Assembly: GCA_027214385.1 (NCBI GenBank)
Contig: JAPVXR010000020.1
Span: 1-64,000, forward strand
Direction of reading: 5' to 3'
Length of the DNA stretch: 64,000 bases
DNA from: Cryomorphaceae bacterium 1068
Lineage (GTDB): Bacteria; Bacteroidota; Bacteroidia; Flavobacteriales_D; Cryomorphaceae
The notes beneath the pieces were generated by a model that saw only the letters and a list, made by a program, of their open reading frames with translations, had not been told where the DNA came from and did not search any database. The translations under genes and the position numbers were made by a program. Below are positions 23,226-29,465 of this stretch, piece after piece (within the stretch, counting starts at the first letter, position 1; each line of letters starts with the position of its first letter).

Positions 23226-23241
23226 AGAGGTAATCACCCCC

Positions 23242-23320
23242 TCAAACCTCAGGGTTTTACCCCCTGAAACAACAGGAATTTTCCTCTCAAAATACAGGAA
23301 ATCTCCTGTAGAGGGTTTGA
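23242..23320. repeat. Nested hairpins in the intergenic region before the TIR operon
   Basis: An outer stem (TCAAACCTC 23242-23250 with GAGGGTTTGA 23311-23320, one bulge) encloses three small hairpins: CAGGG/CCCTG, AGGAA/TTCCT and TACAGGA/TCCTGTA (23293-23299 with 23304-23310, perfect 7 bp). A folded RNA or a DNA structural element is possible. Apart from this and neighbouring repeats, 23020-23537 carries no gene. Confidence 0.4.
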
Positions 23321-23537: not shown

Positions 23538-23936
23538 ATGGCAAAAAAGAAAGTATTTATAAGCTACGATTACGACAATGATAGACATTTTAAGAACCTG
23601 TTATTGGCTTGGGATGGAAATCGACAGTTTGATTTTTCAATTAGCGATCACTCTGCTGATGTATCAATCAATAGTACTAGGGCAACAACCATTAAGGCGG
23701 TTTTGAGTAGAAAAATTAATGAATGCTCCAGATTCTTAATAATTGTAGGTAAAAGTACCTACAGAAGCAATTGGGTTAATTGGGAAATTGAAAAAGCTCA
23801 TTCGCTCGGTAAAAAAATAATTGCTGTAAAAACCGATCGCTCAAACACAACTCCTTTAGGGTTATATGGTATAGGTGTTAGTTGGGCTATGTCATTTACA
23901 CATTTATCTATTACCAACGCTATAAATAATGCCTGA
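23538..23936 (+). CDS. ThsB-like TIR domain protein (candidate anti-phage sensor)
   Basis: A 132-residue single-domain protein of the TIR-like DUF1863/ThsB family. It opens with KKKVFISYDYDND (beta-A and the family Ser/Asp motif), has a second strand around residue 65 (RFLIIVGKST), the SNWVNWEIEKA helix with Glu83 at the catalytic position of TIR NADases, and KKIIAVKTD. In Thoeris systems ThsB senses phage and makes an NAD-derived cyclic signal. No ThsA is adjacent; instead the next gene overlaps by 8 bp (stop TGA inside ATGCCTGA), so the partner is made in step. The pair is AT-rich and sits among cassette-like and repeat elements. Confidence 0.85.
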   Translation: MAKKKVFISYDYDNDRHFKNLLLAWDGNRQFDFSISDHSADVSINSTRATTIKAVLSRKINECSRFLIIVGKSTYRSNWVNWEIEKAHSLGKKIIAVKTDRSNTTPLGLYGIGVSWAMSFTHLSITNAINNA

Positions 23937-25161
23937 TTACGCGGAAAAAACTTGCTTTGTTATAATGGGCTATGGTCCTAAAAAGGACTATGAGAGTGGG
24001 CGTACCTTAGACCTTGATAAAACTTTTGAAAACTTGATAAAACCCGTTTTCGATAATCTGAAAATCAAATGTTTTCGGGCAAAAGATATTCGACATACAG
24101 GTGTTATTGATGTTCCAATGTATGAATGGATATATAAGGCTGATATTGTCGTAGCTGATTTGTCCACCCTAAATGCAAACGCATTGTATGAGTTAGGAGT
24201 GAGACATGCCTTGAAGCCATATACAACTATTGTTATTTCAGAAGACCAATGTAAATATCCTTTTGATGTGAACCATACAGTAATCGAACCATATGAACAC
24301 CTTGGTAAAGATATTGGAGTGACAGAATCTAAAAGGTTTAAAAGAGAACTTAAGAAAAAAGTCAAATCAATACTTGAAGATGAAAGAAAAGATAGTCCGG
24401 TTTACACTTATCTGCCAGATTTAGAGCCACCTCAACTTAAGGGTGCAACAAAGCCAGTCCTTAAGGAGAGAACCAATGCTGAACCGACTCTCTCAGAATT
24501 GATTCAAGACGCAGAAAAAGCAAAGAACAATAACGAATTCAAGATAGCTCAAGAGCTATATAAAATATGTTTGCGATTTGAAGAAAACAATAGATTCTTA
24601 ATACAGCGCTTGGCTTTGGTCACCTATAAATCCAAAAGTCCAAACCCAAAACAAGCATTAATTAATGCAGCAAAAATATTAGAACCATTGAACCCTGAAG
24701 ATACGACTGACATTGAGACACTTGGGTTGTCAGGTGCAATTGATAAAAGACTATTCGAAGAAACAGGTGATATTTCTTTTCTGAAAAGTTCAATTAAATT
24801 CTACGAAAAGGGATTTCATATTAATGATGACTATTATAACGGAATTAACTTAGCCTATCTATTCAATGTTTTATCCAAACATTCTTCTGACCAAAAAGTA
24901 GCTGACTCCTATTTCGTTCAGGCAAGAATTGTAAGAGAAAAAGTAATTGAGATTTGCAATGAGCTAATTGCTGATAAAGACTTTAAAACAAGAGAAGACA
25001 AACATTGGATTTATCAGAGTCTAGCGCAAGCGTATTTAGGATTAGGTGAAGAAGAGAAAATAAAAGGTATTGAAAAGGAAATTAAAGAATATTCAGAAGG
25101 GCAATTTGATATGGATACATTCTTAGAGCAGAATAGAAAATTGATTAATCTAATAAGCTAA
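23929..25161 (+). CDS. Nucleoside-deoxyribosyltransferase-like domain plus TPR (DUF4071/TRAF-binding-like) partner of the TIR protein
   Basis: A 410-residue protein. Residues 7-145 form a Rossmann-like NDT/TIR-related domain: CFVIMGYG, DLDKTFENLIKPVF, ADIVVADLSTLNANALYELG with Glu88 at the position of the deoxyribosyltransferase nucleophile. Residues about 185-410 are helical repeats of the DUF4071 (MAP3K TRAF-binding-like) type found fused to such domains. Coupled translation with a ThsB-like TIR suggests an effector or sensor of a two-gene immune module. Whether the N-terminal domain degrades a nucleotide or binds a signal is open. It is not a known ThsA (no SLOG or SIR2 motif). Confidence 0.75.
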   Translation: MPDYAEKTCFVIMGYGPKKDYESGRTLDLDKTFENLIKPVFDNLKIKCFRAKDIRHTGVIDVPMYEWIYKADIVVADLSTLNANALYELGVRHALKPYTTIVISEDQCKYPFDVNHTVIEPYEHLGKDIGVTESKRFKRELKKKVKSILEDERKDSPVYTYLPDLEPPQLKGATKPVLKERTNAEPTLSELIQDAEKAKNNNEFKIAQELYKICLRFEENNRFLIQRLALVTYKSKSPNPKQALINAAKILEPLNPEDTTDIETLGLSGAIDKRLFEETGDISFLKSSIKFYEKGFHINDDYYNGINLAYLFNVLSKHSSDQKVADSYFVQARIVREKVIEICNELIADKDFKTREDKHWIYQSLAQAYLGLGEEEKIKGIEKEIKEYSEGQFDMDTFLEQNRKLINLIS

Positions 25162-27228: not shown

Positions 27229-27487
27229 TTTCTAATTAATGCCAACAACTAAATAAGCGCATCCCACTACATTATCCTGCCTATGGAATAACAGTTACAC
27301 TCCCTTGTGGTTGCTGAATTAATTTACGCTTACAAAATAGGAAATCTCCAAAGATGCAGGGCTATTCTACAGATTTTTCGTGAGCCTTTGATCCCCCACA
27401 AAATACCAATTCCTTTTTCTCGGATGCCATTCTAAGCCACAGATTTTCTAACGGCTAAGGGTATTCTCCCAAGCCTATCTCCCGATG

Positions 27488-27843
27488 GCATTCGTTCAAA
27501 GCGGTTTTGAATGGATGCACCGGCTTTTTGCCTGGGTGAAAATCCCGATGAATGTATGCAAAGCCATTTTGCATGTGTTCAAAGACTTTTTGAATGTGTG
27601 CAAAGAACTTTTGAACGTGTGCAAAAAACTTTTGCATGTGTTCAAAGAACTTTTGAATGTGTGCAAAAACTTTTTGAACGTGTGCAAAAAACTTTTGCAT
27701 GTGTTCAAAAACATTTTGAATGTGTGCAAAAAACTTTTGAATGTGTTCAAAGACTTTTTGAACGTATGCAAAACACTTTTGAATGTGTTCAAAAACATTT
27801 TGAACGTGTGCAAAACACTTTTGAACGTGTGAAAAAGTGCTTT
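27488..27843. repeat. 21-bp tandem repeat array, about 17 units
   Basis: Fourteen consecutive 21-bp units run from 27550 to 27843 with consensus G(A/C)A(T/C)GTGT(G/T)CAAA(A/G)A followed by (A/C)(C/A)TTTT. Three more degenerate units (one of 20 bp) extend it left to 27488. Many junctions read TTTGAATGTGTTCAAA or near variants, so each unit carries an imperfect dyad. Because 21 is a multiple of three and the unit lacks stops in several frames, long frames appear on both strands (peptides such as LNVCKKL, FERVQKT, FAHVQKV); none has a start, signal or flank that makes it convincing as a gene. Between 27229 and 27487 there is only the GCCAAC half-site. Confidence 0.9.
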
Positions 27844-27975: not shown

Positions 27976-28148
27976 CAAACTGTTAAATGGCCCCTTCTGA
28001 GCGGGCCTGAAAAGAGCGCAATACGGGCGGTCAAAAAAAAGGCGATTTAACAGTTTGATTTTCTAAAAGCTTAGGGCGCGAAGGCATAGCAGAGATGAAG
28101 ATCCATAAAACGAAAGACTGTTAAATTTTGACGTCAAAATTTAACAGT
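27976..28148. repeat. Inverted repeats built on ACTGTTAAAT, including a perfect 32-bp palindrome
   Basis: A 13-bp arm CAAACTGTTAAAT (27976-27988) has its exact complement at 28045-28057. Further on, 28117-28148 is a perfect 32-bp palindrome whose left half is ACTGTTAAATTTTGAC. The 10-mer ACTGTTAAAT thus occurs four times in alternating orientation within 173 bp. The remainder of 27844-28283 holds no gene I can support. Confidence 0.8.
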
Positions 28149-28283
28149 GATTGGAAACGTGGATTTTAGCAGCTCCGCAAAGTGCTGCAATACAGGTAGA
28201 TGCGTAACCGTTTCGCAGCCCTTCCCGTTTTATCAGGCAACTGCGGCGGCAACGTAGCCAATGCTTTTATAAATCAAATTATC

Positions 28284-28901
28284 ATGTACAAAGTGAAGAT
28301 GAGCGTAGCGCGGCTCAACCCAACAGCGCTGATTGACTTCACGGAAAAATTAATCGCACGGATGACGGGGAATGCAAACTTTGCCGATCCGCAACCTTCG
28401 CTCGCAGACCTTACCGCGAAGAAGGATGAGCTCGACGCGCTGGTTATAGCAGCTGACGACGGTACGAGGCAGGACAGGTTTGACCGCAATCAGGCGGCCA
28501 CTGAACTGAAGGATATGATACGGGTGCTGGCAAATTATGTAAGTATGGTGGCAGCCGGCGATGGTAGCATCATCTTGTCATCGGGGTTTAAAATCAGAAA
28601 TACGTCGGAGCCCGTGCCGCCGCTTAGCGTGCCCCAATCGCTTAAGGCGATGTACACCGACCACAGGGGTATGATCGAGCTGGATTGGGCCCGTGTGGAG
28701 AATGCGTTGAACTACCAGGTGTTGATGTCTACCGACCCGGCTTTGCCCTTATCGGACTGGACAGCTGTGGCGCTTACCTCGCGAAGCAAAGCAGAAATAA
28801 GCAACCTTAACCGCGGGCAGACTTACTGGTTTAAAGTGCAGGCCGTGGGCCGCACGGACAAGAGTGGTTTCAGCGACCCTGCAGAAATCATGGCTGCCTG
28901 A
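28284..28901 (+). CDS. Fibronectin type III domain protein of unknown function
   Basis: A 205-residue protein starting at the ATG at 28284 (MYKVKMSVARLNPTALIDFT). The first 100 residues are helical; residues about 115-205 form a fibronectin type III domain (PPLSVPQSLKAMYTDHRGMI, ELDWARVENALNYQVLMS, then NRGQTYWFKVQAVGRTDKSG and FSDPAEI). There is no signal peptide, so it may be cytoplasmic. I recall similar short helical-FN3 proteins in Bacteroidota, often in variable regions. It is more GC-rich than the cassette-like genes and is followed by a strong terminator. Confidence 0.8.
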   Translation: MYKVKMSVARLNPTALIDFTEKLIARMTGNANFADPQPSLADLTAKKDELDALVIAADDGTRQDRFDRNQAATELKDMIRVLANYVSMVAAGDGSIILSSGFKIRNTSEPVPPLSVPQSLKAMYTDHRGMIELDWARVENALNYQVLMSTDPALPLSDWTAVALTSRSKAEISNLNRGQTYWFKVQAVGRTDKSGFSDPAEIMAA

Positions 28902-28941: not shown

Positions 28942-28978
28942 AAAACCCCCGAATGGCGATTTGCGATTCGGGGGTTTT
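28942..28978 (+). terminator. Strong rho-independent terminator
   Basis: AAAACCCCCGAAT (28942-28954) pairs perfectly with ATTCGGGGGTTTT (28966-28978) around an 11-nt loop, directly after the FN3 protein gene. The A/T flanks make it potentially bidirectional. Confidence 0.92.
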
Positions 28979-29465
28979 GGTTTTACCTTCGACTACGGAG
29001 CGGGTGTAAGGGAGTATGGTGCTTCGAAAAATTCTGTTTCTCTTTACTTTGTGTTACTCATGAATTGTTGGCTTTAATCGGTATTCGTGAGCTCAGTCGG
29101 TTGCACCGCCTTCGGTTGAAACAAAGTAAACAAAATTCAAGGCCGTCGAAAGGCAATTTTTGCGCAAGTTAAAGCGAACTTGAGGGTACAATTCGTTAAT
29201 GCGCAAAACCCCGGAAAAAAAGTGACGCGCGCAGTGGCAAACTTCATTCTACATGATTGGAAAATTGCTCTACCATGTTCAACTTATCGTGATACCCTTT
29301 TTACCGGTATTGCTGCACGACGTCCGAACCATCTTGTAGTGACAATTTAGCGATAGACATCAGAAAGTAGAGGCGTAATAATATGTATTGTGAAATGCTG
29401 AAAGAAGAATTCTAGCTACTATCTACCACCTGCGGAGCGGAGGAAGGAGTATCAAACTCAATCTG
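28979..29465. other. Gene-free interval with a short inverted repeat
   Basis: No supported gene. The only structure seen is TTTACTTTGT (29043-29052) with its exact complement ACAAAGTAAA at 29121-29130, plus scattered TGCGGAGC-type fragments like those at 19068 and 23217. It looks like decayed repeat sequence. Confidence 0.5.

Follow-up and report, generated by a model that had tools for sequence, protein, structure and literature searches.

The window, by which we mean the whole analysed stretch of 64,000 nucleotides from Cryomorphaceae bacterium 1068 (contig JAPVXR010000020.1, positions 1 to 64,000), contains at 27483..27839 a tandem array of 17 units of 21 bp in strict register (unit TTTTGNAYGTGTNCAAAAAAC, no strand assigned). 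In a layout made by hand the array was clean from 27546, its first 4 units being degenerate and the other 13 close to TTTTGNAYGTGTNCAAAAAAC. TRF reported 13.8 copies of 21 bp at 27549-27836 (score 324) and, for a period of 42 bp, 6.7 copies (score 375). This was in agreement with the first-pass annotation, which had counted about 17 units, 14 of them exact in length. Higher-order repeats of 42 and 63 bp are present within the array. A CRISPR array was also considered for this locus and rejected, as the units abut head to tail without unique spacers and no cas protein was found among the neighbouring genes scanned.

A single-gene unit lies about 445 bp downstream of the array; its gene (28284..28901, plus strand) encodes a protein of ~205 aa with an N-terminal helical bundle and a C-terminal FN3 domain. 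The start is placed at 28284; a longer ORF from 28200 would overlap a promoter-like site, GTAACC-N16-CGTTTTAT (28204..28233, plus strand), which we presume from its general likeness to be a putative promoter of the ECF-sigma type. The form GTAACC-N16-CGTTTNAT occurs four times in the genome, in every case at about -77 to -83 of a family member, including the window gene, and a fifth family gene of the genome carries a looser form of it. The same motif was absent from the family loci of other genomes, in some of which the array ends only 60-110 bp from the gene; the order array-promoter-gene is established only for the window genome. Two further features were found between the array and the gene: an inverted pair CTGTTAAAT ... 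ATTTAACAG (27980..28053, read directly from the sequence), to which equivalents made up of other bases correspond in the paralogues L017 and L019, and a palindrome ACTGTTAAATTTTGACGTCAAAATTTAACAGT of 14 pairs with a 4-base loop (28117..28148), the same-place counterparts of which in paralogues are AGGTTAAAAA/TTTTTAACCT and CAGGTTAAAAT/ATTTTAACCT. The position of these palindromes is constant among the paralogues and their sequence changes. The unit is closed by an intrinsic terminator, AAAACCCCCGAAT...ATTCGGGGGTTTT (28942..28984, plus strand), and of 80 homologous loci 47 have a terminator within 200 bp downstream of the gene. An empty-site comparison could not set the ends of the element, since the neighbourhood of the window locus is not retained in the nearest genomes. 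Elsewhere in the window, a likely two-gene conflict/defence unit is located at 23538-25161 (plus strand), in which a gene for a ThsB-type TIR protein (PF08937, E 9e-19) overlaps a TPR-S gene (PF20308, E 6e-18) without a match in seven family relatives; a weak 23-bp tandem repeat (2.8 copies, 23236-23299) lies ~240 bp upstream of the TIR gene.

AlphaFold provided a confident two-domain model of the ~205-aa protein (pLDDT 91), in which the N-terminal domain is helical and contains a conserved MTGNxNF.xPxP loop and the C-terminal FN3 domain ends in SDPAxIMAA. Residues 111-205 adopt the FN3 fold, as indicated by matches to the FN3 domains of neogenin and PTP with Z 15-16 and rmsd 1.4 Å. At the sequence level the window protein had no match in NCBIfam and just weak FN3-like matches in Pfam, scoring 16.7 bits for PF00041 (Fibronectin type III domain) against a cut-off of 25, which is passed by paralogue L024 (34.3) and relative L010 (26.1). 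A fold search with the N-terminal domain gave no match above background; the weak rows included Avd (4dwl, 8ub7) and an S23-family protein (2rld), with a Z of ~6 that equals the helical-bundle background. Avd, an accessory protein of diversity-generating retroelements, and S23 proteins likewise have a four-helix-type bundle. However, no reverse transcriptase was found among the neighbouring genes scanned at the window locus and the family protein, unlike Avd, is not basic; the possible Avd/S23 likeness may serve only as a lead. No DNA-binding fold was detected above background in the FN3 protein, and the near-neutral charge of the family proteins (median net charge -1 for the helical domain and +2 for the FN3 domain) does not favour direct DNA binding. 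The family carries no name in Pfam (beyond FN3), NCBIfam or PADLOC, and no relatives were found in phage, plasmid or viral-contig collections.

The main point beyond a reading of the window alone is that the array goes with a gene family in which each member has an array of its own. The window genome encodes ~9 further paralogues (10 matches including the window protein), nearly all of them preceded by their own upstream array, of 21 bp or of 7n, 22 or 63 bp and mostly of different sequence. The core of the window unit has no other occurrence in the 4.32-Mb genome. Across 34 genomes, from Bacteroidota but also from Verrucomicrobia and Planctomyces-labelled contigs, a periodicity of 20-22 or 40-44 bp was present within 1 kb upstream of the gene at 82 of 102 family loci, compared with 1 of 400 control windows (autocorrelation, z of at least 6 at lag 20-22 or 40-44); the exact Fisher p of 1e-73 counts related loci as independent and indicates an order of magnitude only. 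The remaining 20 loci had decayed or no arrays. By TRF, 49 of 90 family loci had a period of ~21n with a score of at least 100 within 1 kb upstream, and control DNA (400 kb, two genomes) contained no array of period ~21n with a score of 80 or more. Many of the arrays missed by TRF had diverged to ~50% unit identity and still held the 21-bp phase. The commonest lags were 21 and 42, followed by 22 and 44, as expected for two turns of B-DNA. A sister subfamily had no such period in five testable loci (L011, L012, L015, L018 and L175). Family members were found in Cryomorpha, Lacibacter and other Chitinophagaceae, Flavobacteriales and Luteolibacter (Verrucomicrobia), as well as in metagenome bins labelled Ignavibacteriae, Planctomyces and Kuenenia; since the Planctomyces- and Kuenenia-labelled bins hold nearly identical copies of the locus, one of these labels may be due to contamination. 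The association of the arrays with the gene family is solid. Private ~21-bp arrays beside FN3 genes are a widespread and apparently undescribed pattern, as no description of it was found in the open-access literature, to which the search was confined.

The spacing of the upstream array is alike from gene to gene, and the repeat sequence mostly differs. Of 12 pairs of proteins 70-85% identical, all could be aligned in the gene DNA, 8 in the proximal 120 bp and only 2 in the array, although array-array BLAST similarity is inflated by simple repeats and serves as a rough measure only. In the L237/L238 pair the DNA aligned on both sides of unrelated arrays, and in L102/L103 the flanks aligned around differing arrays, which the rough BLAST measure scored as similar. 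In the ortholog pair L157/L159 (86% identity) the array could still be aligned and differed by exactly one 21-bp unit. Together with the 70-85% pairs, this indicates that change in the arrays proceeds in whole units and ends in their replacement. The recent duplicates L168/L169 have a common block from -884 to about the stop codon, with no visible terminal repeats. Some loci carry additional repeats: in L157/L159 inverted copies, CTTCATCAAG and GTCATCAAG, flank the direct array of GATGAAG units; in L102/L103 of Lacibacter cauensis a conserved hairpin CGTGTGCAAACG...GTTTGCACACG is located ~860-1030 bp upstream of the genes, beyond the arrays; and in L178 a short run of CGTGATAAATCACG palindromes ~22 bp apart is found 410-650 bp upstream, besides the main array.

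As a class, the arrays exhibit dyad symmetry (mean z 1.44, p ~4e-13 for 80 arrays against a dinucleotide-preserving null), with individually significant dyads (p < 0.05) in 29 of the 80 and none in more than half. Four paralogues of the window genome share the plan arm-4-arm-5 = 21, with the dyads TTTGNA-TGTG-TNCAAA, TTTGAA-GGGC-TTCAAA, TTTGAT-TGTC-ATCAAA and TTTTT-AGTC-AAAAA. For the window array itself the symmetry was borderline (p = 0.07, same null), and its dyad is convincing only as a class property. The first-pass annotation had proposed that the dyad was kept by alternation of bases within the units. This did not hold, as the variable half-site bases inside units are for the most part anti-complementary, C standing with T in 3 of 3 cases and A with G in most others, and their variation tracks the 63-bp higher-order repeat. 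Half-site pairing is better between adjacent units than within a unit. No signal of phased A-tracts or curvature was found in the arrays, and two array units searched against viruses gave no exact match.

The explanation that we consider best is that of a DNA-level, helically phased array of putative protein-binding dyads, private to each gene unit, to which we would assign a probability of roughly 0.4. The array would then be a cis-acting double-stranded DNA element of a self-contained multicopy unit (array, proximal promoter region, helix-bundle/FN3 gene and terminator), presenting ~7-18 dyad-like sites two helical turns apart, all on one side of the DNA. Such sites would most likely be bound cooperatively by a dimeric protein, and the bound protein may control the neighbouring gene or mark the locus, the private sequences possibly keeping the gene copies from cross-talk. 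This mechanism behind the association is one that we infer. Against it count the lack of a link between the array and any DNA-binding protein, the near-neutral charge of the FN3 protein, the many arrays without an individually significant dyad, the failure of array dyads to recur in the two genomes tested beyond a few or chance-level sites, so that no known regulator would read them, and the plus-strand excess of open frames described below. The phased DNA-site array put forward in the first-pass annotation fits these observations; the iteron- or partition-like form given to it there stays unproven, the adjacent protein being a neutral helix bundle with FN3 and not a Rep or Par protein. It is also conceivable, and we suggest it tentatively, that the array is a private DNA address: selection would keep the two-turn spacing and the dyad character and would permit or promote replacement of the sequence in each copy, so that several copies within one cell stay distinct, and the FN3 protein or a partner would read the spacing or its own array and not a shared sequence. 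If so, the arrays would represent a class of element that conserves the repeat period and not the sequence. Neither common descent nor shared regulation readily explains a rule of copy-specific 21-bp arrays, which suggests a mechanism by which repeat spacing is read or private sites are made. The rule would also offer a handle for finding the function of an unnamed multicopy protein family, and account for odd intergenic tandem repeats as a class, which are otherwise met singly.

The main rivals to the reading as DNA-level dyads are an RNA scaffold and a functionless minisatellite. In the former, the transcribed array would fold into a chain of small hairpins acting as a scaffold or leader for the FN3 or another protein. 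Indeed, the folding energy of the arrays is below that of unit-permuted arrays (mean z ~-2.1), and neighbouring units of the window array can pair over ~19 bp into a 19-pair hairpin. However, the gain in energy does not differ between the strands (p = 0.94) and G.T and A.C pairs are balanced (13 vs 12 arrays), so that wobble is favoured on neither strand. A covariation signal with an initial z of 11.7 turned out to be an artefact of choosing the best dyad phase, and that claim was dropped; after calibration covariation was marginal (241.7 vs 200.5 +/- 18.6 on unit-permuted arrays; total z ~2, mean per array 0.05). Moreover, the arrays are not set off by terminators, which between array and gene were not found beyond chance across homologous loci, and the promoter-like site of the window genome lies ~365 bp downstream of the array. 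Rfam gave no match above the gathering score, only sub-threshold matches to eukaryotic microRNAs and snoRNAs. The array is not an obvious RNA, and we consider an RNA-level element unlikely.

In the second rival, the locus would keep generating 21-22-bp arrays that are tolerated, for example by palindrome slippage or because of a protein bound every two turns, and the arrays would have no function. The complete turnover of sequence, the gains and losses of whole units and the 20 of 102 loci with decayed or no arrays are what such a locus-specific minisatellite would leave behind. On the other hand, the association is retained across 34 genomes, among them Verrucomicrobia and Planctomyces-labelled contigs, and the period is kept even at a unit identity of ~0.5, which makes a functionless origin doubtful in our view.

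We regard as still less probable a homotypic operator cluster, in which each copy would have amplified the site of a different existing host regulator. The repeat of L179, TTTGAT-N4-ATCAAA, is presumably similar to an FNR-type box, and a TTTGA/TCAAA-like theme is common to four paralogues of the window genome; outside the array, however, that genome contains the exact L179 dyad at only 3 places, the L123 dyad occurs outside its array at control level in G488, and the core of the window unit occurs nowhere else. Operators of a shared regulon were rejected for three arrays in two genomes, as the sites were not upstream of other genes beyond a few or chance. That the array codes for a fast-evolving repeat protein, with heptads such as FERVQKT, was the second option of the first-pass annotation and is very improbable: open frames are indeed present on both strands of the window array, as had been noted, and the class has a mild excess of open frames on the plus (gene) strand (43 vs 29.7 expected of 68, dinucleotide null, stop triplets not being fewer overall), but the non-codon-multiple units of 22, 41, 43 and 44 bp in homologous loci almost never have an open frame, a plus-strand open frame is missing from 25 of 68 codon-multiple arrays, the translations have no common pattern and Pfam gave only sub-threshold coiled-coil noise for the window ORFs. 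The arrays are non-coding.

Among known systems, the iteron arrays of plasmid origins (R6K, RK2) are helically phased direct repeats of 17-22 bp beside a gene, with replicon-specific sequence. The window array is likewise composed of phased direct repeats within this range (21 bp), but the gene beside it encodes a helix bundle with FN3 and no replication initiator or other Rep domain, and the family differs in having up to a dozen copies per genome and no homologue in plasmid or phage collections. In homotypic operator clusters and in plasmid centromere (parC/parS) arrays, dyad-like sites likewise stand in tandem upstream of a gene, on one face of the DNA; here, no Par or regulator gene is part of the array unit, and the sites tested are not common to a regulon. 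Cyanobacterial STRR heptamers are also intergenic tandem arrays with a seven-related length, and 7-bp repeats are found at some family loci too. STRR sequences, however, are common genome-wide and not bound to one gene family, whereas the arrays described here mostly have private sequences next to a constant gene.
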